A stretch of DNA of 64,000 nt, from contig JAWPMN010000001.1 of assembly GCA_033344895.1 (NCBI GenBank), forward strand, positions 4,286,001 to 4,350,000, read 5' to 3'. Of the stretch, positions 26,852 through 50,037 are shown piece after piece. The translations under genes were made by a program, and so were the position numbers. The DNA is from Alphaproteobacteria bacterium (GTDB lineage Bacteria > Pseudomonadota > Alphaproteobacteria > UBA8366 > Aestuariispiraceae). Position 1 is the stretch's first letter; the number at the start of each line of letters is the position of its first letter. A model generated the notes under the pieces. That model searched no databases, had not been told where the DNA came from, and saw only the letters and a program-made list of their open reading frames with translations.

Positions 26852-28156
26852 CTATTCCGACAGGATCACACGGCGTTTCGCTGCGACACCGGCAATATAG
26901 GTCTCGGCAATTGCCCGGTCGTCGCCGAGGGTCTCCAAAACAAAGAGCTCTTCCTGCAGGCTGCGTACGGTTTCCATCCGTGTGGCCATGGCAGAGGTCG
27001 CATGACTGTTCAGGACGATGATGTCAGCCTCCGATCCGGGCTTCAGCGTGCCGATGCGATCCTCCAACTGGAGACCGCGCGCATTGCCGAGCGTCGCCCA
27101 ATAGAACGACTTCAGCGGATCGAGCTTCTGGTTCTGAAGTTGCAGGACCTTGTATCCTTCATCCAGGGTTCGAAGCATCGAGTAGTTGGTGCCGCCGCCG
27201 ACATCGGTCGCAATCGCACGCCGCACACCGGTCTCCCGCAGCCCCTTTTCGTCGAACAGGCCGCTGCCCAGGAACAGGTTCGAGGTCGGGCAGAAAACCG
27301 CCACCGAGCGGGTCTCCGCCATGACCTGACGTTCCCGTTCACTCAGGTGGATGCAATGACCGAACAGGCTTCGGTCGCCGACCAGGTCATATTTCTCATA
27401 CACATCCAGGTAATCCCGAGCATCGGGATAGAGCTCCCCCGTGAAGGCAATCTCGTCATGATTTTCCGAGAGATGGGTCTGGACATAGACATCCAGATGT
27501 TCCCTCACCAATGCCTGGGCGGCTTCCATCTGCGCGGGCGTGGACGTGATCGCGAAACGCGGCGTCACGGCATAGAGCGCCCGGCCCCTGCAGTGCCACT
27601 TCTCCAGCAACGCCTTGCTGTCGTCATAGGACGACATGGCCGTATCGCGCAGATAGTCCGGCGCATTCCGATCCATCATGACCTTGCCGGCAATCATGCG
27701 CATGTTGCGGACTGCTGCCTCCTCGAAGAAGGCCTCAACGGATGCCGGATGTACGGTGCAATAGACCGCCGCCGTCGTGGTTCCGTGCCGCGTCAACTCG
27801 TCGAGAAAACGCCGGGCGATGGTCCGACTATGGGCCGGATCCGCGAATTTGGCCTCCTCCGGGAAGGTGTAGGTCTCCAGCCAATCCAACAACTGGCTTC
27901 CCCAGGAGGCGATCGCCTGCATCTGGGGAAAGTGGGCATGGGCATCGATGAAGCCGGGGAACAGGATGTGCGGGCGATGATCGATAACCGCGGCGTCCGC
28001 GGACTCAATCTCCGCGAACTCACCGCAGGACACGATCAGGCCGTCTTCGATCCGCAGCGCACCGTCTTCTATATAGCTGAAGGACGCCTCGTCCTCGATA
28101 TCACGCGGCTCGGATCGGAAGCTCAGAACCCGACCCCGCAGAACTGTGGCCGACAT
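26852..28156 (-). CDS. guaD: Guanine deaminase
   Basis: 434 residues, the expected length. It hydrolyses guanine to xanthine and ammonia. Metal-binding motifs of the amidohydrolase fold are clear: FIDAHAHFPQM, THLSENHDEI, FGHCIHLSERE and IATDVGGGTNYSML, and the guanine-deaminase CPTSNLFLGSGLF motif is present. Its ATG directly abuts the puuD stop (TAA-ATG), so the two are cotranslated. Xanthine formed here is the substrate of XdhAB encoded downstream of the LysR gene. Confidence 0.94.
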   Translation of the reverse strand: MSATVLRGRVLSFRSEPRDIEDEASFSYIEDGALRIEDGLIVSCGEFAEIESADAAVIDHRPHILFPGFIDAHAHFPQMQAIASWGSQLLDWLETYTFPEEAKFADPAHSRTIARRFLDELTRHGTTTAAVYCTVHPASVEAFFEEAAVRNMRMIAGKVMMDRNAPDYLRDTAMSSYDDSKALLEKWHCRGRALYAVTPRFAITSTPAQMEAAQALVREHLDVYVQTHLSENHDEIAFTGELYPDARDYLDVYEKYDLVGDRSLFGHCIHLSERERQVMAETRSVAVFCPTSNLFLGSGLFDEKGLRETGVRRAIATDVGGGTNYSMLRTLDEGYKVLQLQNQKLDPLKSFYWATLGNARGLQLEDRIGTLKPGSEADIIVLNSHATSAMATRMETVRSLQEELFVLETLGDDRAIAETYIAGVAAKRRVILSE

Positions 28157-29413
28157 TTAGTGAATCCCCCCGGACACACCCTCGAACCAGCGGACGATCT
28201 GGGCCCTCTCCTCGCTCTCCATGGCTGTCACGTTGGCCGGCGGCATGGCGTGGGATCGACCGGAATGCAGATAGATCTCCCGGGCATGGCGGGCGACATC
28301 GGCGGCTGTTTCCAAGGCGACCCCCTTCGGTGGCGCAACAATCCCGGGCCAGAGCGGCTCCCGGGCGTGGCACATCGAGCATCGGGCCTGAACTGTGCCG
28401 TAGGCATCATCGAAATGCACCGACTCCGCAAAGGGTTCCGAAACATGGGTGAACTCGCGCTTGGCGGGCTTGAAGCCGGCCTCCACCGCCGTTTGCTGCA
28501 GAATCCTTGGCTCCGTCGAAAGCCACATGATGGCAATGAACAGGACTGTCGTCGCAATCCAGGTCCACCAGGGTTTCCCCTGCCTGGCGTGCATGGAATT
28601 GAAGAAATGCCGGATGGTGACCCCCATCAGGAAGACCAAGCTGGCAATCACCCAGTTGTATTCGGTTCCAAAGGCTAGCGGGTAGTGGTTCGACAGCATC
28701 AGGAACAGGACCGGAAGGGTCAGGTAGTTGTTGTGCGTCGACCGCAGCTTGGCGATCTGTCCGTATTTCGGATCCGGCGCCCGCCCCGCCTTCAGGTCCG
28801 CCACGACGATCTTCTGATTGGGTATGATCACCAGAAAGACATTCGCCGACATGATCGTCGCCGTGATCGCTCCGAGATGCAGGAACGCCGCACGGCCCGT
28901 GAAAAGCTGGGTATAGCCCCAGGCGAACGCGACCAGACCGACATAGAGAACGATCATCAGAACGGTCGGATGATCCTTCAGGGGCGACCGGCACAGACCG
29001 TTATAGAGCAGCCAGGCGATGCCAAGGGACAGAATGGAGGTGAAGATGGCCGGGGCCGGACGGATGTCCCAGACCTCGCGATCGATCAGGTAGAGATCGG
29101 CCCCCGCATAGTAGACGATGCACATCAGTGCAAACCCGGACATCCAGGTCGCGTAGCTTTCCCATTTGAACCAGGTCAGGTGTTCCGGCAGCGCGGCCGG
29201 CGCGACCAGATACTTCTGGATGTGGTAGAAGCCACCGCCGTGAACCTGCCATTCTTCACCATGGGCGCCTTCCGGCAAGGTCGGCACCTTGCGCAGACCG
29301 AGATCCAGAGCGATGAAGTAAAAAGACGAACCGATCCACGCGATGCCGGTGATCACATGCAGCCAGCGCGCGGCAAAAGACAGCCAGTCCATGAAAATCG
29401 GCCAATCCAGCAT
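28157..29413 (-). CDS. puuD: Urate hydroxylase PuuD (membrane urate oxidase with cytochrome c domain)
   Basis: 418 residues. About eight hydrophobic helices (DUF989 region, residues 1-315) are followed by a C-terminal cytochrome c domain with haem motif CSMCH (about residue 343). The N-terminus FMDWLSFAARWLHVITGIAWIGSSFYF is typical. It converts urate to 5-hydroxyisourate, passing electrons to the respiratory chain and not to O2 as in UaZ/PucL types. It is the first gene of puuD-guaD and diverges from the LysR gene. Confidence 0.93.
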   Translation of the reverse strand: MLDWPIFMDWLSFAARWLHVITGIAWIGSSFYFIALDLGLRKVPTLPEGAHGEEWQVHGGGFYHIQKYLVAPAALPEHLTWFKWESYATWMSGFALMCIVYYAGADLYLIDREVWDIRPAPAIFTSILSLGIAWLLYNGLCRSPLKDHPTVLMIVLYVGLVAFAWGYTQLFTGRAAFLHLGAITATIMSANVFLVIIPNQKIVVADLKAGRAPDPKYGQIAKLRSTHNNYLTLPVLFLMLSNHYPLAFGTEYNWVIASLVFLMGVTIRHFFNSMHARQGKPWWTWIATTVLFIAIMWLSTEPRILQQTAVEAGFKPAKREFTHVSEPFAESVHFDDAYGTVQARCSMCHAREPLWPGIVAPPKGVALETAADVARHAREIYLHSGRSHAMPPANVTAMESEERAQIVRWFEGVSGGIH

Positions 29414-29524
29414 TCATTCCCTCCGTCATTCGAGCACGCTAACCTTGCACGCTCCATTTCCTTTCGGAATCAAATAATCTACTGTTCACTTTCGCGGTTT
29501 CTTTGAAAAAGGGCAGCCGGTCCC

Positions 29525-30439
29525 ATGCCTTATCTCGACAGCATTCGCGTCTTCGTTCGCACCGTCGAACTCGGCAGCATCACCGCCGGCGGCCGCGACC
29601 AGCGACTGACCCCGGCGGTCGCCAGCAACCGAATCAAGGAGCTGGAAAGTCGCCTCGGAATTCGCCTGTTCAACCGTACGACTCGGAAGATCGTACCGAC
29701 GGAGGTCGGACGGCTGTTCTACGAGCACGCACGGCGGGTCATCGAGGCCCTGGACGAGGCCGAGGCCGTCGTCGCCAATTACTCCCAGCATCCGCGCGGC
29801 GCGATACGGGTCATGGCACCTCTCGGGCTGGCCCGACGGGTCCTTGCCCCGCTTGTTCCCATATTCAACGACCAGTATCCGGATCTCGCAATCCGTCTTC
29901 GTCTGTCCGACAGAAAGGTCGATATCTTCGATGAAGGAGTCGACGTCGCCTTTGTCCTGGGGCAACTGGACGATTCCAGCATGAAGGTGCGCAAGATCTT
30001 GGACTGCCGCCGCGTTCTCTGCGCCGCGCCCTCCTATCTGGCGGAGGCAGGAGTGCCTGAGCATCCGAGGGATCTCGTCACCAAACCGCATCGGTGCCTG
30101 CTGCTGCGCTTCCCGGGTTCATCGGAATACTACTGGATGCTGGAGACGGAGGAAGGTCTGAAGCGTTTCGACATCAGCGGACCCTACGACGCGGATGAGG
30201 GCGACGTCCTGACCGAATGGGCCATTGAAGGCCGGGGGATCATCAACAAGCCCTATTACGAGGTTGCGGAACATATTCGTAGCGGTGCCCTGGTTCCGGT
30301 TCTGGAATCGACCCCGCCGCCCCCGTCACGCATCGCCTGCCTTTACCCGCACCGACGGCTGCAGGATCCGAAGATCCGCCTGTTCATCGACTTCATGGTC
30401 AGCGAATGCCGCAAACGGCTCGAGGCGATGACCGCGTAG
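29525..30439 (+). CDS. LysR-family transcriptional regulator, divergent from puuD-guaD
   Basis: 304 residues. The N-terminal winged helix-turn-helix (residues 1-60: GSITAGGRDQRLTPAVASNRIKELESRLGIRLFNRTTR) and the periplasmic-binding-type effector domain (90-295) are normal for LysR. It diverges from puuD over 111 bp, the usual arrangement for a LysR regulator and its target. The effector may be a purine or urate; this is inferred from context. It converges on the ABC binding-protein gene, separated by a strong bidirectional terminator. Confidence 0.88.
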   Translation: MPYLDSIRVFVRTVELGSITAGGRDQRLTPAVASNRIKELESRLGIRLFNRTTRKIVPTEVGRLFYEHARRVIEALDEAEAVVANYSQHPRGAIRVMAPLGLARRVLAPLVPIFNDQYPDLAIRLRLSDRKVDIFDEGVDVAFVLGQLDDSSMKVRKILDCRRVLCAAPSYLAEAGVPEHPRDLVTKPHRCLLLRFPGSSEYYWMLETEEGLKRFDISGPYDADEGDVLTEWAIEGRGIINKPYYEVAEHIRSGALVPVLESTPPPPSRIACLYPHRRLQDPKIRLFIDFMVSECRKRLEAMTA

Positions 30440-30456
30440 CCGACCCGACAAAGCGA

Positions 30457-30482
30457 AAGGGCGCCGGCATGCCGGCGCCCTT
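30457..30482. terminator. Bidirectional terminator between the LysR gene and the purine ABC operon
   Basis: A perfect 12-bp self-complementary stem, AAGGGCGCCGGC (30457-30468) and GCCGGCGCCCTT (30471-30482), occupies the 63-bp gap between convergent genes. The arms end in AA and TT, which suits termination in both directions. Confidence 0.8.
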
Positions 30483-30502
30483 CCAGTCCAAACGCGGCAG
30501 GA

Positions 30503-31579
30503 TCAGGTCTGAACGCCCTGAACGTACCAGTCCATCTTGTGCAGGTCCTCGTCGCCCAGCGCTTCGCCATCCCCGATACGCTGCGCCCCGGTCTGATCGA
30601 AGATCGGCCCGGCGAATGCCGGTGCGGAGCCGTCGATGATTCCCTGCTCCGTTGCCTTGGCCGCAGCCTGCACGTCGCCCGGAATCCGGTCGTTGAATGG
30701 CGTCATTTCCAGCACGCCTTCCTTCAGACCCCACCATGTGTCGGTGCTTTCCCAGGTACCGTCCAGCGCCTGCTGAATGCGGTCGACGTAGTAGGTGCCC
30801 CACTTGTTGGCGATCGCCGTCAGATGCGCAGTCGGCGCGAAGGACGACATGTCCCAGGCCTGACCGAAGGCCATCAGGCCGCGTTGTTCGCAGGCCTGAA
30901 GTGCGGCCGGGCTGTCGGTGTGCTGGGCGATCACGTCTGCACCCTGGTCGATCAGGGCCTTGGCGGCGTCGGCTTCCTTGGCCGGATCATACCAGCTCGA
31001 CACCCAAAGGACCTTCGTCTGGAAGTTCGGGTTGACCTTGCGCGCGGCCAGCGTGAAGGCGTTGATCCCCATGACAACTTCCGGAATCGGGAACGAGGCG
31101 ATGTAGCCTGCGACCCCGGTTTTCGACATGTGTCCCGCGATCGTACCGCAGACCGCACGGCCTTCGTAGAAGCGGGCATTGTAGGTCGCCATGTTCGGGG
31201 CGCGCTGATAGCCGGTCGCATGTTCGAACTTCACGTCCTTGAAGCGCTTGGCGACTTTCAGCGTCGGGTTCATGTAGCCGAAAGAGGTCGTGAAGACGAG
31301 ATTGCTGCCGTCTTCGGCAAGGCGCCGGATGACGCGCTCGGAATCGGGGCCCTCGGCCACATTCTCGACATAGGACACATCGATCGCATCCCCGAACTTC
31401 TCGATCGCTTCAAGGCGCCCCTGATCATGCGCATAGGTCCAGCCATGGTCGCCAATCGGGCCGATATAGACGAAGGACACCTTCAGCGGGTCCGCCGCAC
31501 GCGCCTGGGCGCCGAGCAGCGGCAGGGTGCTGGCCGCACCTGCGGTTTGAAGCAGTCTTCTACGCGTAACGTTCCACAT
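30503..31579 (-). CDS. BMP-family ABC transporter substrate-binding protein (purine or nucleoside type)
   Basis: 358 residues. A twin-arginine-like start (NVTRRRLLQTAGAASTLPLLG) precedes a BMP/PnrA-type periplasmic fold (SFVYIGPIGDHGWTYAHDQGR is the family opening; core VYIGPIGDHGWTYAHD). The family binds nucleosides or purine-like compounds. It is the last gene of an operon that starts with uraH-xdhAB, so xanthine, urate, hypoxanthine or allantoin is a likely ligand. Possible Tat export, from the RRR-LL motif, is inferred. Confidence 0.87.
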   Translation of the reverse strand: MWNVTRRRLLQTAGAASTLPLLGAQARAADPLKVSFVYIGPIGDHGWTYAHDQGRLEAIEKFGDAIDVSYVENVAEGPDSERVIRRLAEDGSNLVFTTSFGYMNPTLKVAKRFKDVKFEHATGYQRAPNMATYNARFYEGRAVCGTIAGHMSKTGVAGYIASFPIPEVVMGINAFTLAARKVNPNFQTKVLWVSSWYDPAKEADAAKALIDQGADVIAQHTDSPAALQACEQRGLMAFGQAWDMSSFAPTAHLTAIANKWGTYYVDRIQQALDGTWESTDTWWGLKEGVLEMTPFNDRIPGDVQAAAKATEQGIIDGSAPAFAGPIFDQTGAQRIGDGEALGDEDLHKMDWYVQGVQT

Positions 31580-31604
31580 TTTTCACTCTCCCTGTTCTAG
31601 TGAA

Positions 31605-32528
31605 TTAGACTGTTGGTTTGAACGGTTGTCCCAGGCAGGCCGGGGCCTGCGCACCGACCGATTTCCGCCAAGATATCAGCGCCAGCACGGCGATGGTCGC
31701 CAGATACGGCATCGCCGCCAGAAACTCCGGTGCCAGCAGACCGAACCCGGCTGCCTTTGCATGCAGTTCAAGGGTCATGACAACACCGAAGAGATAGGCT
31801 CCGGCCAGCAATCTGGTCGGACGCCACGCCGCGAAGACCACCAGGGCCAATGCGATCCAGCCACGTCCTGCCGTCAGTTTTTCGGCCCACATCGGGGTCA
31901 AGGCAAGCGAATAAAACGATCCGCCGATTCCGGCCATGGCTCCGCCAAATGCCACGGCGAGGTAACGCACGCCGACGACGGAGTATCCGATGGAATGCGC
32001 CGAGACATCGCTTTCCCCCACAGCCCGCAGAATCAGGCCGCCGCGCGTACGTTTCAGGAACCACGCGACCGTGAACAGCATCACAAAGGAAAAATAGACC
32101 AACGGATTGTGCCCGAACAGGACCCGCAGGACCGGATGGTCCGACAACGCCTCCGGGAAGATCGGCCCCAGCACCGGCACCGTCTGTCCGACATAGCCCT
32201 CCCCCATCAGCGAGGACAGGCCGATCCCGAAAATGGTCAGGGCGAGCCCGGTGGCCACCTGATTGGCCGTCAGGGTCAGTGTCAGGTATCCGAAGATCAA
32301 CGATGCCAGGGCGCCGGCAACCGCCGCCGCCAGGACCGCAACAATGCCGAATCCGGTGACGGACATGACCGCAAATCCGCTGACCGCACCGATCAGCATC
32401 ATGCCTTCGACGCCGAGGTTCAGGACCCCGCTCTTTTCGACCACGAGTTCCCCCAGCGCCGCCAGCAGTATCGGGGTGGAGGCGCCGACAACGGTCATGA
32501 TGATAGAAATGATAATCGCGTCGCTCAT
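31605..32528 (-). CDS. ABC transporter permease (BMP-type uptake system, subunit 2)
   Basis: 307 residues with about eight hydrophobic helices. The opening MTVVGASTPILLAALGELVVEKSGVLNLGVEGMML (core GVLNLGVEGMM) is diagnostic of the nucleoside/BMP permease group. It pairs with the permease encoded immediately upstream, overlapping it by 4 bp, to form the channel used by the 519-residue ATPase. Confidence 0.9.
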   Translation of the reverse strand: MSDAIIISIIMTVVGASTPILLAALGELVVEKSGVLNLGVEGMMLIGAVSGFAVMSVTGFGIVAVLAAAVAGALASLIFGYLTLTLTANQVATGLALTIFGIGLSSLMGEGYVGQTVPVLGPIFPEALSDHPVLRVLFGHNPLVYFSFVMLFTVAWFLKRTRGGLILRAVGESDVSAHSIGYSVVGVRYLAVAFGGAMAGIGGSFYSLALTPMWAEKLTAGRGWIALALVVFAAWRPTRLLAGAYLFGVVMTLELHAKAAGFGLLAPEFLAAMPYLATIAVLALISWRKSVGAQAPACLGQPFKPTV

Positions 32529-33601
32529 GCCGCGGTCCCCTTCGAAAGACTGCCGATACGCAGCCGGTAGTTCACCAGAATATCCGTTGCCAGAAGGAAG
32601 AAGAGCATCATGGCCTGGAACACGCCGGTCGCCGCACTGGGCAGGCCGATCGTGGTCTGGGCAATCTCGCCACCGACATAGGAGATGGCGAGAATGATGC
32701 CGGCCAGAATCACACCGATGGGATGGAGACGCCCCAGGAAGGCTACGATGATGGCCGTGAACCCGTATCCGGTCGGAAACTGCGGCACCATCTGACCGAA
32801 GGGCCCGGCTACCTCGAAGGTACCCGCCAATCCGGCCAGACCACCAGCGGCAAACAACGAAAACCAGACCGTACGCTTCTTGTTGAAGCCGCCGTACCGG
32901 GCCGCCTCCGGCGCCGCGCCGACGACACGAATTTCGAAGCCGAACACCGTACGCGACAGGACGTACCAGACCGCGATCGCGATCACGAAAGCCAGCGGAA
33001 CGCCAATGTGAATGTAGGTTCCCGCGACCTCGGGCAGCATCTGGCTGTCATTGAACAGCCGGGTCTGTGGAAAATTGAACCCATCCGGATCCTTCCACGG
33101 ACCGCGCATCAGATAGTACAGCAGTTGGATGGCCGCATAGGTGAGCATCAGGCTGGACAGGATTTCATTGACGTTCAGACGCGTCTTCAGGAATGCCGGA
33201 ATGCCCGCATAGAGCATGCCGCCGACGATCCCGCCGAGGCACATGAGCGGCAGAATCCAGATCCCCTCCAGATGCCAGGTCGCCAGGGCTACCCCGGTGG
33301 CGGCAAGGCCGCCCATCACGTATTGTCCCTCCGCGCCGATATTCCAGACATTGGCACGAAAACCGATGGACAGCCCGGTTGCGATCAGGATCAGCGGCGC
33401 AGCCTTGATTCCGAGGTCGGTCCACTTCCCGATGTCGATGGCCGGGGATACGAATATCTTCCAGACGGCCGCGAAGCCGTCATAGCCAAGCAACGTGAAA
33501 ATCACCCCGCCGGTAAACATGGTCAGCAGCACCGCAATCACGGGCGTCAGATACAACATGCTCCGGCTGGGCTGTTTGCGTTTTTCAAGTTCAAGCAGCA
33601 T
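32525..33601 (-). CDS. ABC transporter permease (BMP-type uptake system, subunit 1)
   Basis: 358 residues with about nine helices. It carries family features such as RANVWNIGAEGQYVMGGLAATG and LKTRLNVNEILSSLMLTYAA. It heterodimerises with the following permease. Its first codons overlap the ATPase gene by 11 bp. Confidence 0.9.
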   Translation of the reverse strand: MLLELEKRKQPSRSMLYLTPVIAVLLTMFTGGVIFTLLGYDGFAAVWKIFVSPAIDIGKWTDLGIKAAPLILIATGLSIGFRANVWNIGAEGQYVMGGLAATGVALATWHLEGIWILPLMCLGGIVGGMLYAGIPAFLKTRLNVNEILSSLMLTYAAIQLLYYLMRGPWKDPDGFNFPQTRLFNDSQMLPEVAGTYIHIGVPLAFVIAIAVWYVLSRTVFGFEIRVVGAAPEAARYGGFNKKRTVWFSLFAAGGLAGLAGTFEVAGPFGQMVPQFPTGYGFTAIIVAFLGRLHPIGVILAGIILAISYVGGEIAQTTIGLPSAATGVFQAMMLFFLLATDILVNYRLRIGSLSKGTAA

Positions 33602-35150
33602 GAGACGCCCCCGAAATTTCCACGGTCGCCGAAGCGTCCCCGTGCACGCCCCCCATCAGCAGCCCGATCTCATCGACCGTGGCCTCACCAACCTTCAGCG
33701 TCTTCGAAAGCCGCCCTTCATTGATGACCGCGATGTTGTCGCAGATCGCCAGGAGCTCATCGAGGTCCTGACTGATGATGACGATGGCGGATCCTTCGGC
33801 CGCCAGATCGACGATGGCCTGGTGAATGGCGGCCGCGGCCCCGGCATCGACCCCCCAGGTCGGCTGCGAGACAAGAAGTACATCCGGGGCCTGCATGATT
33901 TCGCGCCCCATGATGAATTTCTGAAGATTTCCGCCCGACAGAGATCCCGCCGTTGAGGCCGCCCCCGTCGTCTTTACCGCGAAGGTGTGGATCACTTCGT
34001 CGGTGTAGCTCTCGGCGAGCTTTGCGTTGATAATCCCCCAATTGACCATACCTTTGCGGTTTCTGGCGGTCAGGATGGCATTGTCGCTCAGCGAGAAGTT
34101 GGGAACGGCGCCATGGCCGTTTCGTTCCTCCGGCACCGCGCACAATCCGTGCTTGCGGCGCTGAATGGCATTCAGGTTCCCGACGGACGTGCCGTCGATC
34201 TTGATCGCGTCGACCCGGTCGCAGGGAATCTCGCCCCCGAGTGCGAGCAGGAGCTCGTTCTGTCCATTGCCGGCAACACCGGCAATTCCGAAGATCTCGC
34301 CGGAGCGGACACCGAAGGTAATATCATTCAGATTGACCCCGAACTCGCCTTCGGCCTCCTGGCACAGCCCGTCGACCACGAAGCGGGCGGGGCCGAGTTT
34401 CCGCTCGCCCTTCTTTTCGATCTCCTTCAGCGTGCCGCCGATCATCATTTCGGCCATGCTGCGGGAGGTTTCACGACGCGGATCGCAATCACCGACAACC
34501 TTGCCGCCGCGCAGGATCGTCGCGCCGTCGCACAGCTCCTGAATTTCGTGCAGCTTGTGGCTGATATACAGAATCGAACAACCACGTTCGGCCAGGGTCC
34601 GCAGGGTCTTGAACAATTGGCGAACCTCCTGCGGCGTCAGCACCGAAGTCGGTTCATCCATGATCAGCAACTGCGGCTCCAGCAGCAGAGCCCGAACGAT
34701 CTCGATGCGCTGGCGTTCGCCGACGCTCAGGGTGGAGACGGTCCGATGCGGGTCCAGCGCCAGTTCATACTCATGAAGCACCTGGCGGATTCGGACCTCC
34801 AGCGCCGAATAGGACGTGCTGTGGTCCATGCCCAGCGCGATGTTCTCCAGCACCGTCATCGCCTCAAACAGCGAGAAGTGCTGAAAGACCATGCCGATGC
34901 CCATGCTTCGGGCGGCCTTCGGATTGGGAACCTGCACCGCCTTGCCGTCGAACAGGATCTCGCCCTCGTCCGGCTGCATGATGCCGTAGATCATCTTTAC
35001 CAGTGTCGACTTCCCGGCGCCGTTCTCACCCAGCAGGGCGTGGATCTCACCGGGGCCAACTGAAAAACTCACATGGTCGTTGGCCAGAACGCCCGGGAAC
35101 GATTTCGTCACCCCGCGCAATTCCAGCCGTGCATGTTGACCGTCACTCAT
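33591..35150 (-). CDS. Tandem-domain ABC ATPase of the purine-type uptake system
   Basis: 519 residues: two fused nucleotide-binding domains as in RbsA/NupA. The N-terminal domain has Walker A GENGAGKSTL, signature LSVGERQRIEIV, Walker B LLIMDEPTSVL and switch His (ISHKLHEIQE). The C-terminal domain has a weak Walker A (GVAGNGQNEL), a good signature (LSGGNLQKFIMG), no catalytic Glu (VSQPTWGVD) and no switch His (ISQDLDEL). So one composite site is expected to hydrolyse ATP, as is usual in this family. The start overlaps the xdhC stop by 8 bp, coupling uptake to xanthine oxidation. Confidence 0.92.
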   Translation of the reverse strand: MSDGQHARLELRGVTKSFPGVLANDHVSFSVGPGEIHALLGENGAGKSTLVKMIYGIMQPDEGEILFDGKAVQVPNPKAARSMGIGMVFQHFSLFEAMTVLENIALGMDHSTSYSALEVRIRQVLHEYELALDPHRTVSTLSVGERQRIEIVRALLLEPQLLIMDEPTSVLTPQEVRQLFKTLRTLAERGCSILYISHKLHEIQELCDGATILRGGKVVGDCDPRRETSRSMAEMMIGGTLKEIEKKGERKLGPARFVVDGLCQEAEGEFGVNLNDITFGVRSGEIFGIAGVAGNGQNELLLALGGEIPCDRVDAIKIDGTSVGNLNAIQRRKHGLCAVPEERNGHGAVPNFSLSDNAILTARNRKGMVNWGIINAKLAESYTDEVIHTFAVKTTGAASTAGSLSGGNLQKFIMGREIMQAPDVLLVSQPTWGVDAGAAAAIHQAIVDLAAEGSAIVIISQDLDELLAICDNIAVINEGRLSKTLKVGEATVDEIGLLMGGVHGDASATVEISGASHAA

Positions 35151-36000: not shown

Positions 36001-36004
36001 GGCG

Positions 36005-40290: not shown

Positions 40291-40345
40291 TGTCGATCCG
40301 CCCGATTTCTGAAATTGTGCCCGTATCAGATTGTGAGGTTCATCA

Positions 40346-43109: not shown

Positions 43110-43112
43110 GCC

Positions 43113-44474
43113 ATGGCTTCGCCCGCCGAAGGAACGGTCCTGATCCGCAACGCCGATGTTGTGGTGACCATGGATGCGGGGCGTCGCGAATTGAAGGGTA
43201 CCGATATCCTGCTGGCAGACGGGGTTATCGTTTCGGTCGGCAAGAGGAATGCCGACACGGCCGCGGACACGGTCATCGATGCGACAGGCTGTGTCGTGAC
43301 ACCGGGTCTGGTGAATACCCATCACCACCTTTATCAAACCCTGACCCGCGCGGTACCGGCCGGTCAGGATGCGCTGCTGTTCGGCTGGCTGAAGGCGCTG
43401 TATCCGATCTGGGCACGCATGACGCCGGACGACATGTTCGTGTCGGCACAGCTGGGCCTGGCGGAACTGGCCCTGTCCGGCTGCACCATGAGTTCGGACC
43501 ATCTCTATCTTTACCCGAACGGCGTCCGCCTGGAGGACACGATCGCGGCCGCGCAAACGATCGGCATTCGGTTTCACCCGACCCGCGGGGCCATGAGCAT
43601 CGGCGAATCCGACGGCGGCCTGCCTCCGGATTCCCTCGTCGAGGAAGAGGAGGCGATCCTGCGCGACTTCATTCGGGTGGTGGACGCGTTTCACGATCCG
43701 GCGCCCGGTGCGATGGTCCGGGTCGGGCTCGCTCCCTGCTCCCCCTTTTCCGTCAGCACAGGACTGATGAAAGACGCCGCCGCGCTTGCCCGGGACAAGG
43801 GTGTGATGTTGCACACCCATCTGGCAGAGAACGACGAGGACATCGCCTATTCCCTCGCCAATTTCGGCTGCCGCCCCGGACAATATGCGGAAGACCTGGG
43901 CTGGACCGGTGACCATGTCTGGCACGCCCATTGTGTCAAACTGGACGCGGCGGAAATCGATCTGTTCGCCCGGACACGAACCGGCGTTGCGCATTGTCCC
44001 TGTTCGAATTGCCGCCTCGGTTCCGGGATCGCGCCATTACGACAGATGCGGGACGCCGGTGTCCCTGTCGCCCTCGGGGTCGACGGTTCGGCCAGCAACG
44101 ACAGCGGGAACCTGATCGCGGAGGCACGCCAGGCGCTTCTGCTGCAGCGCGTCCAGAATGGCGCGGACGCCATGAGTGCCCGCGAGGTGCTCGAAGTCGC
44201 CACGCTGGGCGGCGCGGCGGTTCTGGGACGGGGCACAGAACTTGGCTCCATCGAAACCGGCAAGCGTGCGGATGTCGCAATCTGGGACGTCTCCGCGCTT
44301 GAAGCCGCCGGCGCCTGGGATCCCGTCGCCGCGCTTGTTCTCTGCGGCCCGTTGCCGGTGCGCGACCTTCTGGTCGAAGGCCGCCCCATAGTCCGGGACC
44401 GGCAACTGACCTCGGCGGACCCGGTTGGCATCGCGGCGGAAGCCCGTCGCCGGGTCGCCCGTCTTCTCGACTGA
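43113..44474 (+). CDS. Amidohydrolase, probable 8-oxoguanine deaminase
   Basis: 453 residues of the AtzC/TrzA/SsnA amidohydrolase group. Metal motifs: LVNTHHHLYQTLTRA, HTHLAENDED, WHAHCVKLD and VALGVDGSASND. The pattern DALLFGWLKALYPIW and CPCSNCRLGSGIAPLR matches characterised 8-oxoguanine deaminases, which release urate and ammonia. Hydroxydechloroatrazine-type or guanine substrates are alternatives. It ends the plus-strand purine operon, three bases after allA, and its product urate would enter PuuD. Confidence 0.86.
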   Translation: MASPAEGTVLIRNADVVVTMDAGRRELKGTDILLADGVIVSVGKRNADTAADTVIDATGCVVTPGLVNTHHHLYQTLTRAVPAGQDALLFGWLKALYPIWARMTPDDMFVSAQLGLAELALSGCTMSSDHLYLYPNGVRLEDTIAAAQTIGIRFHPTRGAMSIGESDGGLPPDSLVEEEEAILRDFIRVVDAFHDPAPGAMVRVGLAPCSPFSVSTGLMKDAAALARDKGVMLHTHLAENDEDIAYSLANFGCRPGQYAEDLGWTGDHVWHAHCVKLDAAEIDLFARTRTGVAHCPCSNCRLGSGIAPLRQMRDAGVPVALGVDGSASNDSGNLIAEARQALLLQRVQNGADAMSAREVLEVATLGGAAVLGRGTELGSIETGKRADVAIWDVSALEAAGAWDPVAALVLCGPLPVRDLLVEGRPIVRDRQLTSADPVGIAAEARRRVARLLD

Positions 44475-44495
44475 CCTTTACCGCGTAACATTCCC

Positions 44496-44525
44496 AAAAA
44501 AGCGGCCCCCGCGGACGCGGAGGCC
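44496..44525 (-). terminator. Rho-independent terminator of the bhc operon
   Basis: On the minus strand a hairpin GGCC-CCGC-loop-GCGG-GGCC (44504-44525) is followed directly by TTTTTT (44501-44496). It lies 55 bp past the bhcD stop and so ends the bhcABCD transcript. The same hairpin may also act on the plus-strand purine operon. Confidence 0.85.
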
Positions 44526-44580
44526 AAGGGTCGTCACGGTCGGGACAACGGCGCCGTCCCGCATGACGAGGGATGGATTC

Positions 44581-45546
44581 CTAGAGTTCCGCCGTCACTA
44601 CTTCCCCGTGGCGCTGCGCAAGATCGGCCGCAACGGACGCGACTGCGAGATCCTGCAACCCGACACCGGTCCCATCGAACAGCGTAACTTCCGCTTCAGA
44701 CGTCCGGCCCGGATGCGTCCCGTTGACGACGGCGCCGATCGGCGTGATGGCCGCCGGGTCCAGCAGGCCGGCGGCGACCGCATGCTGCGTCTCACCGATG
44801 GTCACGGATTGGGCGACCTCATCGGTGAAGACGGAGGCGGCGGCCACCAGAGCCGGGTCCAGTTCCTGCTTTCCTTTGGTGTCGGTCCCCATGCAGGCGA
44901 TATGTGTGCCCGGCCTGATCCAGTCCCGCATCAGCAGAGGCTCATGGGCTGACGTGACGGTGATGATGACGTCCGCCTGCGCACCCAGCGACTCCCGATC
45001 GACAGCTTCGAAGGGCAGACCCAACTCATCGGCCACGGCTGCGAGAGATGGCAGCATCTCCGCATGAAGATTCCAGGCAACGACCTTTTCGAAGTCCCGC
45101 TGTTCTGCGGCGGCTCTTAGCTGGAAGGTCGCCTGGTGCCCTGCCCCGATCATGCCGAGGACCCGGGCATCCTGGCGTGCCAAATGGGCGATGGAAACGG
45201 CGCTGGCGGCGGCCGTACGAGCCGCCGTCAGATAATTGCCGCCGACCAGGGCCTTCAACCGCCCGGTATCCGGGTCGAACAGGATGACCGTGGACTGGTG
45301 GTTGGTCAGGCCGTTTTCCACATTTCCGGGCCAGTAGCCGCCCGACTTGACGCCCAGGACCAGCCCCGCGCGATCAAAACCTGACTTGAAGCCATAGAGA
45401 GCATCGGCATGGCCGATGGCCTCCCGGACGACAGGGAAGTTGCTGGCCTCCCCCTTTGCCATGGCGCCGAACACGGCCTCCACCGCGGCGTATGCGTCGG
45501 CACGTCCGACCACACGCCGGCACGTCTCTTCCGATACGATCAGCAT
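44581..45546 (-). CDS. bhcD: Iminosuccinate reductase BhcD (ornithine cyclodeaminase family)
   Basis: 321 residues. The Rossmann nucleotide motif (VLGMIGAGHQATFQLRAA) and family start (EETCRRVVGRADAYAAVEAVFGAM) show the ornithine cyclodeaminase/mu-crystallin fold. In bhc clusters this member reduces iminosuccinate to L-aspartate with NAD(P)H. It is the last of bhcA-B-C-D here. The start at 45546 (MLIVSEET) lies 10 bp after bhcC's stop. On sequence alone it could be called ornithine cyclodeaminase; the neighbours decide the call. Confidence 0.88.
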   Translation of the reverse strand: MLIVSEETCRRVVGRADAYAAVEAVFGAMAKGEASNFPVVREAIGHADALYGFKSGFDRAGLVLGVKSGGYWPGNVENGLTNHQSTVILFDPDTGRLKALVGGNYLTAARTAAASAVSIAHLARQDARVLGMIGAGHQATFQLRAAAEQRDFEKVVAWNLHAEMLPSLAAVADELGLPFEAVDRESLGAQADVIITVTSAHEPLLMRDWIRPGTHIACMGTDTKGKQELDPALVAAASVFTDEVAQSVTIGETQHAVAAGLLDPAAITPIGAVVNGTHPGRTSEAEVTLFDGTGVGLQDLAVASVAADLAQRHGEVVTAEL

Positions 45547-45556
45547 GACCGGCCCC

Positions 45557-46720
45557 TCAATACGCCTTGCCGCGCGCCGTGATCGGCCAGAGCGTCTCGA
45601 CCTTCCCGCCCCGAACGCCGACATACCAGTCGTGAACGTTGCAGGTCGGATCGCAATGACCGGGAACCAGACGAAGTTTCTCGTTGATCGCTAGCTTACC
45701 GTCGGGATCGGCGATCACACCATGTTCGTCCGAGCACTTCACATATTCGACGTCGCTTCGGCCGAACACGACGGGCAGTCCGGAATCGACGCTCTGTGCC
45801 TTCAGACCGGCATCGCAGATCGCCTTGTCCGCCTTCGCGTGACTCATGACGGATGTCAGGATGAACAGGGCGTTCTCCCATTCCCCCTGATCGATGCGGT
45901 TGCCGTCCTTGTCCAGAATACGCCCGTAATCCGCATCCATGAAGGCGTAGGAACCGCATTGCAGCTCGTTATAGACACCGGACGCGCCCTCGAAATAATA
46001 CGACCCGGTGCCGCCGCCCCCGACAATGTCGCAGTCCAGACCTTCCGGTTTCAACGCCTGAACCGCGTCCGTCACCATCGCGACAGCGATGTCGATCTTC
46101 GCCTTTCGGTCTTCGTAACGGTCAAGGTGCTGCATCGCGCCCTGATAGGCCTGAATGCCGCCGAACCTGAGGCCCGGCGCGGCATCGATCGCCTTGGCGA
46201 TGGCGACAACTTCAGCCGTTTCGGTCACGCCGCATCGCCCTGCGCCGCAGTCGATCTCGACCAGACACTCGATTTCCGTCCCATGCTTCTGCGCGGCCGC
46301 CGACAGGTCGGCGACGTTCGTCAGGTCGTCGACGCAGCAAAGCGTCCGCACCCCTAATGTCGGCAGACGGGCCAGACGGTCGATCTTGGCGGGATCCCGA
46401 ACCTGATTGGAGACAAGGATGTCCTTCACCCCGGCCCGGGCAAAGGCCTCCGCCTCCGAGACCTTCTGGCAGCAGATGCCGGACGCATCGCCATGTTCGA
46501 TCTGATACAGGGCCACATCGGCGGATTTGTGCATTTTGCCGTGCACGCGGTGCCGCACGCCGGCTTCCCGGCAGAAGTCGCGCATCTTGGCGACGTTGCG
46601 TTCGAATGCATCCAGGTCGACGACCAGACAAGGCGTCTGAATGTCCGCTTCGTCCATTCCGACTGCGGCCGGCACGTCATATCCGACTTCCAGGGTCGAG
46701 AAATCCAGTCTGTTGCTCAT
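45557..46720 (-). CDS. bhcC: beta-Hydroxyaspartate aldolase BhcC
   Basis: 387 residues, PLP enzyme of the D-threonine aldolase/alanine racemase-N group. The PLP-lysine region is RHRVHGKMHKSADV, and metal ligands near the C-terminus lie in VPGHCDPTCNVHDWYVG. It condenses glyoxylate and glycine to (2R,3S)-beta-hydroxyaspartate. The start at 46720 is chosen because AGGAG precedes it; an upstream GTG would put that site inside the gene. The gap to bhcB is 14 bp. Confidence 0.92.
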   Translation of the reverse strand: MSNRLDFSTLEVGYDVPAAVGMDEADIQTPCLVVDLDAFERNVAKMRDFCREAGVRHRVHGKMHKSADVALYQIEHGDASGICCQKVSEAEAFARAGVKDILVSNQVRDPAKIDRLARLPTLGVRTLCCVDDLTNVADLSAAAQKHGTEIECLVEIDCGAGRCGVTETAEVVAIAKAIDAAPGLRFGGIQAYQGAMQHLDRYEDRKAKIDIAVAMVTDAVQALKPEGLDCDIVGGGGTGSYYFEGASGVYNELQCGSYAFMDADYGRILDKDGNRIDQGEWENALFILTSVMSHAKADKAICDAGLKAQSVDSGLPVVFGRSDVEYVKCSDEHGVIADPDGKLAINEKLRLVPGHCDPTCNVHDWYVGVRGGKVETLWPITARGKAY

Positions 46721-46734
46721 TGGTGTCTCCTGTT

Positions 46735-47703
46735 TCACGCAGCCAGTGCTTGAGGGTTCAGCCAGGGCAGCTTGTCGAGGTCGACATTGCCACCGGTTAC
46801 GACGATGCCGACACGCTTGCCGGCGAACACATCGCGGTTCTTCAGAACGGTTGCGAGCGGCACCGCGCTGGAAGGTTCCATGACGATCTTCAGCCGCTGC
46901 CAGGTCAGTCGCATCGCCTCGACGATTTCCTCCTCGGTCGCGGTCAGTACGTCGGTGACATGGGACGAAACGAAGTGCCAGGTCAGGTCCTTCAGCGGTA
47001 CCTTCAGCCCGTCGGCCACCGTTTCAGGGGCGTCGTCCGCGATGATGTGGCCCGCCTTGAAGGATCGGCAGGCATCATCCGCATTCTTCGGTTCCGCCGC
47101 ATAGATCTCGACATGACCGGCGATGCTGGACAGGGTCAGGCAGGTGCCCGACACCATGCCGCCGCCGCCGATCGGTGCGACCACGGCGTCGAGACCGTCG
47201 ACCTGCTCCGTCAGTTCCAGGGAACAGGTGCCCTGCCCGGCAATGACCCGGGGATCGTTATAGGGGTGAACGAATTCCGCCCCGGTCTCGGCGACGACAT
47301 CGGCGAAGACCGCCTCCCGCGACGACGTCGATGGTTCGCATTCGACGATCCGCCCGCCATAGCCCCGCACGGCCGCCTTCTTTGCCTCGGGCGCCGTTCT
47401 CGGCATCACGACCGTCACCGGAATACCCCGGCGGCCCGCCGCATAGGACAGTGACAGCGCATGATTGCCGGAGGAATGGGTGGCAACCCCGATACGGGCC
47501 CTGGCCTCATCCAGCCCGAACACGGCATTGGATGCGCCGCGCACCTTGAACGCCCCGGCCTTCTGAAAGTTCTCGCACTTGAAGAACAGCTTGGCGCCGG
47601 TCAGTTCATCGAGATATCCGGACGTCAGGACCGGAGTCCGATGAATATGCGGGGCAATCCGGGATCTTGCCGCCAGGACATCGTCATAAGTCGGAATCTG
47701 CAT
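46735..47703 (-). CDS. bhcB: beta-Hydroxyaspartate dehydratase BhcB
   Basis: 322 residues, PLP-dependent serine/threonine dehydratase fold. The PLP-lysine motif FFKCENFQKAGAFKVRGA, SSGNHALSLSYAA and the glycine loop APIGGGGMVSGTC are intact. It removes water from beta-hydroxyaspartate to give iminosuccinate. The ATG at 47703 has GGGGGA four bases upstream; an ATG at 47715 would add four residues. It sits between bhcA and bhcC with short gaps. Confidence 0.92.
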   Translation of the reverse strand: MQIPTYDDVLAARSRIAPHIHRTPVLTSGYLDELTGAKLFFKCENFQKAGAFKVRGASNAVFGLDEARARIGVATHSSGNHALSLSYAAGRRGIPVTVVMPRTAPEAKKAAVRGYGGRIVECEPSTSSREAVFADVVAETGAEFVHPYNDPRVIAGQGTCSLELTEQVDGLDAVVAPIGGGGMVSGTCLTLSSIAGHVEIYAAEPKNADDACRSFKAGHIIADDAPETVADGLKVPLKDLTWHFVSSHVTDVLTATEEEIVEAMRLTWQRLKIVMEPSSAVPLATVLKNRDVFAGKRVGIVVTGGNVDLDKLPWLNPQALAA

Positions 47704-47719
47704 TGCGTCCCCCATGTCG

Positions 47720-48931
47720 TCAGGCCGCCGCGCTCTGGGCCGCGCCCGAGCCCCGGCGATAGATATCCTGTGCAGCCGCCACGCCGCTGCCGAGTTCGAT
47801 CGGATAGCCGAGATCCTTCATCGCCATTTCGATGACGGAGAGGCCGGACAAAGCGAGCGAGTCCGGCAGGGAGCCGAGATGGCCGATCCGAAAGGCCTTG
47901 CCTGCCATCTGCCCCAGACCGACCCCGAACGAGACGCCGTAGGCCTCATAGGCATGATTGACGAGGGCGTTCCCGTCGAACCCGCCAGGAACCAGAATGG
48001 CGCTTACCGAGTCGGAATAGAGCTCCGGCCGCTTGGCACAGAGTGACAGTCCCCAGGCCGCGACGGCTGCCCGAACACCTTCCGCGACGCGACGGTGGCG
48101 GGCGAAAACGTTATCCAGCCCTTCCTCCAGAAGCACGGATACACTGTCCTTCAGGCCCAGCATCAGTTGCAGCGCCGGCGTATAGGGATATCCGCCCTTT
48201 GCATTGGCGGCGAGCATGTCGCGAAGATCGAAATAGCAACGTCGACATTGCGCCGTCTCGCAGGCGGCCAGGGCCTTCGGGCTGATAGCAACGATTGCCA
48301 GGCCGGCCGGCAACATGAACCCTTTCTGAGATCCGGTGATGGCGATGTCCACGCCCCATTCGTCCATCCGGAAATCCATGGAACCCAGCGAACTGACACA
48401 GTCGACATAGAGAAGCGCCGGGTGATCGGCCCCGTCGATTGCCCGGCGCACCGCGGCGATGTCGCTGACGACACCGGTCGCGGTTTCGTTATGGGTAACC
48501 AGCACGGCCTTGATCGTCTGGCCGGCATCGTCACGCAGCCGTTCCGCGAAGCGATCCGCAGGCGCGCCCTCCCCCCATTCGCAATCCATGACTTCAACAT
48601 CCAGCGCCAGACGCTCGCACAGGTCGATCCAGCGTTGGGAGAACATGCCGTAGCGGGCCACCAGGACCCGGTCACCAGGCGACAGGGTATTGCTGATCGC
48701 CGCTTCCCATCCTCCGGTCCCGGACCCGGGGAAGGTTATGACCTGCCCGGCTTCGGTGCGGAATACCTGCTTCAGGTCGTCCAGCAGCGGTCCCAACAGG
48801 TCCACGAAATCCGGCGCCCGATGGTCCGCCGTCTGGGCGCACATGGCCAGCCTGAAACGATCCGGCATATTTGTCGGGCCGGGAATAAAGACCGGGTTCT
48901 GGCCACTGAACACGGGAAGATGCGCGTTCAT
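47720..48931 (-). CDS. bhcA: Aspartate-glyoxylate aminotransferase BhcA
   Basis: 403 residues, class V aminotransferase. The opening NPVFIPGPTNMPDRFRLAM and the PLP-lysine motif ITGSQKGFMLPAGLAIVAIS are clear. It transfers the amino group from aspartate to glyoxylate, giving glycine and oxaloacetate, the net carbon output of the cycle. The start at 48931 (MNAHLPVF) is preferred; an in-frame reading from 48964 adds 11 unsupported residues. It is the first gene of the operon and faces bhcR. Confidence 0.92.
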   Translation of the reverse strand: MNAHLPVFSGQNPVFIPGPTNMPDRFRLAMCAQTADHRAPDFVDLLGPLLDDLKQVFRTEAGQVITFPGSGTGGWEAAISNTLSPGDRVLVARYGMFSQRWIDLCERLALDVEVMDCEWGEGAPADRFAERLRDDAGQTIKAVLVTHNETATGVVSDIAAVRRAIDGADHPALLYVDCVSSLGSMDFRMDEWGVDIAITGSQKGFMLPAGLAIVAISPKALAACETAQCRRCYFDLRDMLAANAKGGYPYTPALQLMLGLKDSVSVLLEEGLDNVFARHRRVAEGVRAAVAAWGLSLCAKRPELYSDSVSAILVPGGFDGNALVNHAYEAYGVSFGVGLGQMAGKAFRIGHLGSLPDSLALSGLSVIEMAMKDLGYPIELGSGVAAAQDIYRRGSGAAQSAAA

Positions 48932-49188
48932 GTCTGAATCCTTCCTGTCGCAATTTTCTGTCACGGGCCGATGCGGCCTCGTTGCATGATGACGATACCG
49001 GCACCGTTATCGGCGTCAATTTTTCTGGAAAGTTTTTCTATTTTATTTTGAAATTATTATATTGTTGATTTCACACAATATTTTTGTTTTCATTTTTGCT
49101 CATAATCCAAATATGGAAAAGAAATTCACTTTGGAAATGGCCCTGCCGGCGTCATGATGGACGTCATGAGACAGGAAGGAAACGCGTC
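48932..49188. promoter_or_regulatory. Divergent bhcA/bhcR promoter region with a perfect inverted repeat
   Basis: This 257-bp spacer is strikingly AT-rich compared with the genes. It holds ATATTGT (49059-49065) and ACAATAT (49075-49081), a perfect 7-bp inverted repeat with nine bases between. It also has TGGAAA at 49026, 49114 and 49132. The inverted repeat is the best candidate for a BhcR (IclR family) operator; this is inferred. Confidence 0.55.
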
Positions 49189-50037
49189 ATGACAGCTTCA
49201 CCGGAACCGTCGACCCGGCGCCGCGGACGGCCCCGCAGTGCCGCACCGGACAGCGAGGAAGGGACGGTTCGCGCCCTCGACCGCGGCATTCAGTTGCTGC
49301 GCATCCTGGCCAAGCACGGCAGCCTGAACCTGACGGATCTGTCGCTTCATGTCGGCATGCCGCCGTCTACCGTTCACCGCCTGCTGATGACGCTGAAGAA
49401 CCGGCAGCTCGTCGATTTCGAACCCGCCCCGCAGGTCTGGAAGATCGGCATCGAGGCGTTTCGGATCGGCAATGCCTTCATCCTGCGCAGCAATCTGGTC
49501 GAAGCGGGGTTCGAGGTCATGCGCTGGCTGGTTCAGGAAACGGGGGAGACGGCCAATCTCGGCATTATCGACGATGGATATGTCGTCTTTCTGAGCCAGG
49601 TCGAGACCCCGCATCCGATCCGGGCCTTTTTTCCGCCGGGAACACGCGGGCCGATCCATGCGTCCGGCGTGGGCAAGATGATGCTGGCCGAAATGCCCCC
49701 GCAGGAGGCGGAGGCCATCCTGCGCCGTCGCGGTCTGGCCGAACTCACCCCCAAAACCGTCGTGGTATCCAGTGACATGTTTGCGCAACTGGAAACGATT
49801 CGACGCCAGGGTTGGTCTCTGGACGACGAGGAAAGCCATGTCGGGATGCGCTGCATCGCGGCGCCGATCTACAACGCTTTCGGCAAGGCCGTCGCCGGTG
49901 TCTCGATCTCCGGACCGGCGGCGCGCATCACGGAAGCCACCACCCATGACCTCGCCGCCACCGTCAAACGCGCCGCGGCGACCATCACCGACAAGCTCGG
50001 CGGCGAGCCCCGCGCCCCGGTCGCCGAAATCCGATAA
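49189..50037 (+). CDS. bhcR: IclR-family regulator BhcR
   Basis: 282 residues. The winged helix (about 24-85: RALDRGIQLLRILAKHGSLNLTDLSLHVGMPPSTVHRLLM) and the effector domain (100-270; GKMMLAEMPPQEAEAIL, HVGMRCIAAPIYNAFGKAVAGVSISGP) define an IclR protein. In Paracoccus, BhcR senses glyoxylate and controls bhcABCD; the same role is expected here from the divergent layout. The start at 49189 follows AGGAAGGA. Basic low-complexity residues (STRRRGRPRSA) precede the DNA-binding domain. Confidence 0.9.
   Translation: MTASPEPSTRRRGRPRSAAPDSEEGTVRALDRGIQLLRILAKHGSLNLTDLSLHVGMPPSTVHRLLMTLKNRQLVDFEPAPQVWKIGIEAFRIGNAFILRSNLVEAGFEVMRWLVQETGETANLGIIDDGYVVFLSQVETPHPIRAFFPPGTRGPIHASGVGKMMLAEMPPQEAEAILRRRGLAELTPKTVVVSSDMFAQLETIRRQGWSLDDEESHVGMRCIAAPIYNAFGKAVAGVSISGPAARITEATTHDLAATVKRAAATITDKLGGEPRAPVAEIR

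Follow-up and report, generated by a model that had tools for sequence, protein, structure and literature searches.

The 64-kb window analyzed here, positions 4,286,001-4,350,000 of the 4.64-Mb single-contig genome of an alphaproteobacterium of the family Aestuariispiraceae, contains a block in which purine-degradation genes adjoin a complete set of beta-hydroxyaspartate cycle genes, bhcABCD, with the divergent regulator gene bhcR (Table 1). This composition, proposed in a first-pass annotation, was borne out by profile searches with NCBIfam and Pfam models, which located every gene named there at its place and added several, among them the previously unlisted gene for 8-oxoguanine deaminase. 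The minus strand carries the genes for guanine deaminase, PuuD, an ATP-binding cassette (ABC) transporter of the BMP type, XdhC, XdhB, XdhA and UraH, with a LysR regulator gene divergent from puuD. A 175-bp divergent gap separates uraH from a plus-strand operon that encodes, in this order, a fusion of PuuE with 2-oxo-4-hydroxy-4-carboxy-5-ureidoimidazoline (OHCU) decarboxylase, a cupin, ureidoglycolate lyase and 8-oxoguanine deaminase. The latter gene is separated by a 106-bp convergent gap from bhcD, which is followed by the rest of bhcDCBA on the opposite strand and by the divergent bhcR.

Table 1. Genes and predicted sites of the purine-bhc block (positions in the window; scores in bits, curated cut-offs in brackets)
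Feature	Position	Strand	Evidence
Guanine deaminase GuaD (guanine to xanthine)	26852..28156	-	NF006679 654 (351); TIGR02967 570 (375)
Urate hydroxylase PuuD, membrane type (urate to 5-hydroxyisourate)	28157..29413	-	Pfam Urate_ox_N 454
LysR-type regulator, probable purine-pathway regulator (presumed role)	29525..30439	+	Pfam HTH_1, LysR_substrate
BMP-type ABC substrate-binding protein, probable purine/nucleoside uptake (presumed substrate)	30503..31579	-	Pfam Bmp 174
Two ABC permeases and ATP-binding protein, same transporter	31605..35150	-	Pfam BPD_transp_2, one permease
XdhC, xanthine dehydrogenase accessory protein	35143..36111	-	TIGR02964 290 (162), match from residue 53
XdhB, molybdopterin subunit	36005..38350	-	TIGR02965 1355 (850)
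XdhA, iron-sulfur/flavin (FeS/FAD) subunit	38347..39807	-	TIGR02963 652 (467)
UraH, 5-hydroxyisourate hydrolase	39811..40170	-	TIGR02962 132 (87)
PuuE allantoinase (N) and OHCU decarboxylase (C) fusion	40346..41764	+	TIGR03212 539, TIGR03164 207, both over cut-off
(S)-ureidoglycine aminohydrolase-type cupin	41761..42618	+	NF008373 510 (445)
Ureidoglycolate lyase AllA (releases glyoxylate and urea)	42612..43109	+	PF04115 187; NF009932/PRK13395 187 (160)
8-oxoguanine deaminase, last gene of purine operon	43113..44474	+	NF006055 682 (532)
Terminator-like hairpin with T tail behind bhcD, within convergent gap	44503..44526	-	10 pairs
bhcD, iminosuccinate reductase	44581..45624	-	NF045643 571 (500)
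bhcC, beta-hydroxyaspartate aldolase	45557..46738	-	NF045642 740 (690)
bhcB, beta-hydroxyaspartate dehydratase	46735..47715	-	NF045641 597 (550)
bhcA, aspartate-glyoxylate aminotransferase	47720..48964	-	NF045640 692 (650)
Promoter-like site before bhcA	-35-like TTGACG 49019-49014, spacer 16, -10-like TATCGT ending 48992	-	9/12 matches
Predicted BhcR operator before bhcA	49015..49041	-	27-position matrix, 27.1
bhcR, IclR-type regulator, divergent from bhcA	49189..50037	+	NF045644 359 (350); IclR_C, HTH_IclR

The products of bhcA, bhcB, bhcC and bhcD each exceed the respective curated NCBIfam cut-off and thus represent a complete cycle gene set; the start of bhcA is probably at 48931. The cycle converts two molecules of glyoxylate to one molecule of oxaloacetate, and glycine, which is regenerated by BhcA, is a carrier and not a net input. 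The earlier proposal that the gene products turn glyoxylate and glycine into aspartate and oxaloacetate is therefore retained with respect to the gene set but not with respect to glycine as an input. The bhcABCD-bhcR system of Paracoccus denitrificans was reportedly described by Schada von Borzyskowski et al. in 2019 and studied for glycolate. The cluster of P. denitrificans, like that of the window, encodes the same four enzymes and a divergent IclR-type BhcR; unlike in that glycolate-studied system, the bhc genes of the window adjoin purine genes, and the glycolate oxidase genes glcDEF lie about 1 Mb away. A second, distant BhcC-like gene (L159; L and G numbers are our handles for loci and genomes), at about 3,058,906 of the same genome, reaches 123 bits, well short of the 690-bit cut-off.

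In the chemistry established for these enzyme families, guanine, 8-oxoguanine and xanthine all lead to urate, which is converted through hydroxyisourate, OHCU, allantoin, allantoate and ureidoglycine to ureidoglycolate; AllA then yields glyoxylate and urea, and one glyoxylate is formed per purine ring degraded. The gene set for this ureide pathway, from xanthine to ureidoglycolate cleavage, is present in the block: XdhABC, PuuD, UraH, OHCU decarboxylase, PuuE, ureidoglycine aminohydrolase and AllA, with PuuE and OHCU decarboxylase fused in a single 472-aa protein. The true start of XdhC is probably internal to the open reading frame (ORF) given in Table 1, and AllA scores below the cut-offs of the PRK03606 sub-models. 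For all three transporter genes at 31605..35150, NCBIfam ABC_B6-like models remain below cut-off and give no model-based substrate. The lysR gene beside puuD/uraH recurs in relatives. The single uncertain link of the pathway is the allantoate step: the block showed no gene for a separate allantoate hydrolase, and the profile search of the genome detected no AllC above cut-off. An M20 protein encoded near 3,784,594 scores 538 bits with a more general subfamily model for allantoate amidohydrolases (cut-off 452). The cupin of the block reaches 488 bits with the model NF040771, "bifunctional allantoicase/(S)-ureidoglycine aminohydrolase", for which the cut-off is 350, and might act on allantoate as well. 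A search for allantoicase gave no match in the genome but was also silent in all 14 controls. Urease is encoded elsewhere in the genome (996 bits, cut-off 680).

The linkage of purine and bhc genes is recurrent and goes beyond chance. Loci were collected by a BhcC alignment scan with one genome per species, and the best 80 of 578 confirmed candidates, a set that leans to close relatives, were analyzed; 50 of these have full 10-kb flanks and 30 have shorter ones, and purine and glycolate-oxidase genes were called by tblastn above self-chosen bit-score limits. At least two purine genes are located near bhc in 22 of the 80 loci and in 18 of the 50 with full flanks, compared with a rough chance expectation, derived from genome size, of about 0.4 among the 50; two loci (L110 and L117) contain one purine gene only. 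Glycolate oxidase genes are found near bhc in 2 of the 80 loci and in none of those with full flanks. The pairing occurs in several arrangements and in at least two named orders. Co-occurrence was assessed in 387 evenly drawn members of the class, among which 21 genomes encode BhcC at 560 bits or above, a limit chosen after the scores were seen. Of these 21 genomes, 19 carry the OHCU decarboxylase marker, versus 94 of the 366 others (Fisher P ~3e-9 in a test that ignores relatedness and genome size). The proportion is 13 of 15 at NCBI's BhcC cut-off and 14 of 16 when bhc neighbors are required; left out of the latter figure are five genomes that reach 560 bits without a bhcA/B neighborhood (G060, G132, G134, G356 and G360). 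Within the 16 genomes with bhc neighbors, bhc has purine genes next to it in three (the genome of the window, G080 and G172) and glcDEF in one (G404); when the window is set aside, 2 of 15 are linked versus a rough expectation of 0.13. In G360, which is outside the 16, glcDEF lies beside a partial bhc set. G172 contains two bhc clusters (L141 and L142), each with a ureidoglycine aminohydrolase gene beside bhcR; in the same genome, some 22 kb separate the second bhcC from a second OHCU marker.

In the 25 loci in which both bhcD and allA were matched, allA is invariably on the opposite strand, downstream of bhc in 22 and upstream in three. Ureide genes lie beyond bhcR in L100 and L112 and upstream, on the strand of bhcR, in L092, and uraH directly follows bhcD in L149. 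Eleven plasmid regions were examined as examples, not as a sample, and five of these are linked. The annotated linked examples come from Sulfitobacter, Leisingera, Pseudosulfitobacter, Ruegeria and Methylobacterium (Leisingera and Ruegeria were chosen since puuE had been seen near bhc, and Pseudosulfitobacter since the genus appeared in both searches), and the unlinked regions from Rhizorhabdus, Aminobacter, Methylorubrum, Sinorhizobium, Paracoccus marcusii and P. pantotrophus, with bhc beside glcDEF in Methylorubrum and Sinorhizobium. By eye, all 17 Leisingera plasmid records in which bhcC is listed have puuE within a few kb, although these come from one genus and are not independent.

The blocks of Leisingera methylohalidivorans (NC_023136.1, 195800-213890) and Ruegeria sp. 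THAF33 (NZ_CP045385.1) resemble that of the window in containing xdh, puuD, lysR, uraH, puuE and the ureidoglycolate lyase gene, in the convergence of puuE and the ureidoglycolate lyase gene with bhc, and in the divergent bhcR, but differ from it in that a nucleobase:cation symporter gene, not the 8-oxoguanine deaminase gene, is located next to bhcD and in the placement of the ureidoglycine aminohydrolase gene on the far side of bhcR. In NC_023136.1 (L160), the purine-bhc block is followed by modABC molybdate ABC transporter genes, which fits the molybdenum requirement of xanthine dehydrogenase. In plasmid pMRAD01 of Methylobacterium radiotolerans (NC_010510.1), as in the window, an 8-oxoguanine deaminase gene faces bhcD, followed by bhcCBA and a divergent bhcR, and the two deaminases are 62% identical; uraD and a symporter gene are nearby. 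The purine gene set and order of pMRAD01 are otherwise different from those of the window, with no puuE-allA operon in the 24 kb read.

A BhcR operator was predicted between bhcR and bhcA with a 27-position matrix that was counted on relatives without the window; the 83 bhcR-bhcA intergenic regions collected include that of the window, and the sequence of the window was present in the printout from which the matrix seed was read. A site above 8 bits is found in 77 of the 83 regions, a proportion that holds partly by construction for the 82 non-window regions, and the top score in mononucleotide shuffles is 0.4 bits. The predicted operator is the only site above 7 bits on either strand of the 64 kb. 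Its end overlaps the -35-like box of bhcA, which belongs to one of 5 promoter-like sites in the region versus 1.9 expected, and this position would fit an activator role of BhcR. A study of P. denitrificans reports that BhcR is required for the activation of the bhc promoter by glyoxylate and that a palindromic site is located upstream of the -35 region of bhcA (PMC11323563); the sites of the two organisms are thus alike in their location near the -35 region, a comparison that does not extend to the letters. Across 79 loci (the best 80 of 578, with L054 left out), 75 sites exceed 15 bits, and three of the sites are outside the expected place. Two of the three belong to L087: one is elsewhere in that locus, and the other probably represents the normal site, since no bhcA was matched there between bhcR and bhcB. 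The third, at position 4940 of L092, is an additional BhcR-operator-like site of 19 bits that lies approximately 1 kb from puuE; it may fall within an ORF and hints at direct control by BhcR in the vicinity of ureide genes.

Within the window, the purine operon is convergent with bhc and a terminator-like hairpin is found in the 106-bp gap, indicating that the two are not one transcript. Terminator-like sites in the region number 8 versus 7.8 expected in shuffles, and the position of this hairpin is the main argument for it. A single operon or a shared BhcR regulon was rejected on the grounds of the convergent units, the hairpin between them and the lack of a BhcR-like site by the purine genes. 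By the evidence of BhcR sites and gene order, which does not extend to LysR or another shared regulator, the modules do not look like one regulon but are neighbors, and the simplest idea is that they would be coupled through the metabolite glyoxylate.

Taken together, the gene content, gene order, predicted operator and recurrence of the pairing make it quite probable that the block is a purine-to-oxaloacetate catabolic neighborhood of separately regulated modules, with glyoxylate as the link. In the pathway that we envisage, the steps of which are assigned by homology, guanine, xanthine, urate and 8-oxoguanine would be taken up and degraded through allantoin to ureidoglycolate, which AllA would split into urea and glyoxylate; the urease encoded elsewhere in the genome would free the urea nitrogen. 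Glyoxylate would be both substrate and signal, inducing bhcABCD through BhcR at the operator that overlaps the -35-like box of bhcA, and the cycle would yield one oxaloacetate from two glyoxylates with no loss of carbon, while glycine and the amino group would cycle. Glycolate oxidized by the unlinked glcDEF products would enter the same cycle. Selection on gene order may have joined the modules repeatedly in Alphaproteobacteria, probably separately in the lineage of the window.

Published observations provide partial precedents for this scheme. PMC11323563 names purine bases and allantoin as microbial sources of glyoxylate and describes glyoxylate as the effector of BhcR, with promoter activity following the assumed intracellular level of glyoxylate. 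The nearest functional precedent is the gcl cluster of Pseudomonas aeruginosa: allantoin induces the cluster, which the organism requires to grow with this compound as the sole carbon source (PMC12694930). This system resembles the one proposed here in coupling purine/allantoin breakdown to a dedicated module of glyoxylate assimilation but differs in employing glyoxylate carboligase and tartronate semialdehyde reductase instead of the beta-hydroxyaspartate cycle. Its gcl and allantoin genes also have one regulator in common, UgmR, which binds ahead of both (PMC12694930); in the window, no BhcR-like site common to the two modules was detected. For SAR11, the use of purine breakdown to glyoxylate as a source of carbon has been proposed (PMC11698098). 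The response of BhcR to glyoxylate itself, together with the release of one glyoxylate per purine ring, also favors an explanation that overlaps with ours, namely, that bhc next to ureide genes mainly keeps reactive glyoxylate low during the use of purine nitrogen, with the gain of carbon being secondary; as the principal function of the linkage, we consider such detoxification somewhat unlikely.

Several observations weigh against a functional coupling of the modules. In 58 of the best 80 of 578 loci, the search detected one purine gene or none; 30 of the 80 have short flanks. The OHCU marker is absent in 5 of the 26 bhcC-bearing genomes, which comprise the 21 of the class sample and five more from the family of the window (G007, G008, G012, G065 and G123 lack the marker), and in 3 of the 8 family genomes with bhcC at 560 bits or above. 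None of the seven other bhc loci of the family (L037-L043) has purine enzyme genes in the DNA read, with at least 6 kb on both sides available for five of the seven; L038 is a 5-kb contig, L041 ends inside bhcA, L043 is below the BhcC cut-off, and L042 has a weak lysR match and no matched bhcB. In a member of the family, G005, the same purine operon, 8-oxoguanine deaminase included, is present at 61-86% identity but is followed by phosphoesterase-like and Mrp antiporter genes, with bhc on another contig; no guanine deaminase or puuD match was found in the stretch of G005 read and no matched purine gene in the 14 kb behind its bhcD. At the purine promoters of the window, no BhcR-like site above 7 bits was detected on either strand, and in vitro, glyoxylate lowers the binding of BhcR to the bhc promoter, an effect that the authors reconcile with activation by hypothesis only (PMC11323563). 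Finally, the genome encodes malate synthase A (811 bits, cut-off 594) and glcDEF, so that the cycle is not the sole glyoxylate-consuming route and purines are not the sole source. The glcDEF genes are at about 689-693 kb, which, for a circular contig, places them approximately 1 Mb from bhc; GlcE (286 bits, cut-off 284) and GlcF (451, cut-off 333) pass their models, whereas GlcD (537 bits) falls below its cut-off of 568. An absence of malate synthase, suggested by a search for malate synthase G alone, was rejected when Pfam and NCBIfam revealed the full malate synthase A.

Combined with the separate transcription units and the separation of bhc from purine genes in many relatives, these routes would allow the modules to be neighbors without functional coupling, with purines used for nitrogen only, minor amounts of glyoxylate consumed by malate synthase A, and bhc serving glycolate from the distant glcDEF. 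This explanation appears quite unlikely to us: the linkage is far above positional expectation and occurs in several arrangements, linkage to glycolate oxidase genes is rarer, at 2 of the best 80 of 578 loci, and the requirement of P. aeruginosa for its gcl cluster on allantoin (PMC12694930) indicates that carbon can genuinely flow from ureides through glyoxylate. Among the net routes of glyoxylate assimilation searched, namely gcl and bhc, to the exclusion of the serine cycle and others, only bhc was detected by profile: the top match to glyoxylate carboligase in the genome scores 366 bits versus a cut-off of 711, and the candidate gcl homologue was rejected as an acetolactate synthase (1063 bits, cut-off 974). 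With malate synthase A encoded, a route from glyoxylate and acetyl-CoA is available, and glyoxylate can, as far as gene content tells, be combined with acetyl-CoA in this organism. The first-pass annotation had suggested purine-derived glyoxylate as a main input of the cycle. The linkage at the class level and the lack of a gcl above cut-off make it likely that purine-derived glyoxylate is an input, but "main" is not warranted because glcDEF and malate synthase A are encoded and the effector of BhcR, glyoxylate, arises from either source. The comparison with related genomes that the first-pass annotation had proposed gives linkage at the class level (22 of the 80 loci, G080 and G172, and Roseobacter and Methylobacterium plasmids) but none at the seven other bhc loci read in the family of the window.

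The distribution of both modules in the family bears on the history of the block. BhcC exceeds its cut-off in 7 of the 14 family genomes and in 2 of the 6 of the genus, that of the window and G012, and a full-length gene for the PuuE-OHCU decarboxylase fusion is present, within the genus, in the genome of the window only (1 of 6). PuuE-like hits in the genomes of the same genus were rejected as true puuE, being limited to the N-terminal part at 46-50% identity where there was a hit at all. The OHCU marker was not found in G012, G010 and G013 of the same genus; G009 and G011 were judged through the fused PuuE-OHCU query only. This patchiness, together with the presence of linked copies on plasmids elsewhere, is compatible with the lateral acquisition of the whole block as one cassette, in which case adjacency would reflect a single transfer and not selection in this lineage, and functional coupling could still apply. 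We regard such a transfer as unlikely. A foreign base composition was rejected, the G+C content of the block (0.62-0.65) matching that of the rest of the window (0.615), and the similar purine operon of G005 has no bhc behind it. Moreover, the phylogeny points to separate histories of the modules, given that the bhcB and bhcC genes of the window group nearest to the unlinked L040, L143 and L039. The FastTree phylogeny of BhcB and BhcC comprises 100 rows, 80 labelled and 20 unlabelled because of short flanks, with 29 weak forks; loci without matches to both proteins and the duplicates L051, L054 and L067 were left out. This tree requires a minimum of 15 changes of the linked state, a number in which gain and loss are not told apart and which weak forks may inflate. 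Besides the three loci mentioned, the five nearest rows include L145 and L047, likewise unlinked, and the group of eight that contains the window has one linked row, L092, with another arrangement. The closest bhcC relative, L040 (in G001), is 92-93% identical and is accompanied by bhcB and bhcD, with no bhcA matched in 20 kb; its bhcD reaches no more than 67% identity, which makes the similarity uneven across the cluster.

In general, purines are regarded as sources of nitrogen and the beta-hydroxyaspartate cycle as a pathway of glycolate. Both modules are known, and what is new is their repeated pairing; in the open literature searched, which does not cover subscription papers, we met no description of a bhc-purine gene linkage, so that an earlier description is possible. 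The pairing suggests that purines could be used as a source of carbon as well as nitrogen, and we infer from the genomic evidence a flux of purine carbon into the cycle, induction by purines, growth on purines and a selective cause of the linkage. If the coupling is functional, alphaproteobacteria with this pairing, including marine Roseobacters, would gain net carbon from purines without the loss of CO2 that accompanies the glycerate pathway, and metagenome or transcript counts of bhc would not be a clean proxy for the consumption of glycolate. A broader notion, that much of Alphaproteobacteria keeps the cycle mainly for purine/ureide carbon and not for glycolate, that the pairing was assembled several times independently and that ocean bhc counts partly report purine feeding, is one that we put forward tentatively, as conceivable but doubtful.

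The block is flanked by genes of other predicted functions. To its left, at 19696-24803, are genes of an iron/haem/B12-type ABC importer and of a TonB-dependent receptor, with matches below curated cut-offs, and just right of these, at 24938-26599, a PAS-histidine kinase gene. Directly behind bhcR, at 50249-56442, lies a type I restriction-modification set encoding HsdR-, HsdS- and HsdM-like proteins, all below curated cut-offs; the HsdM-like protein obtains its top score with the MAD2 model.

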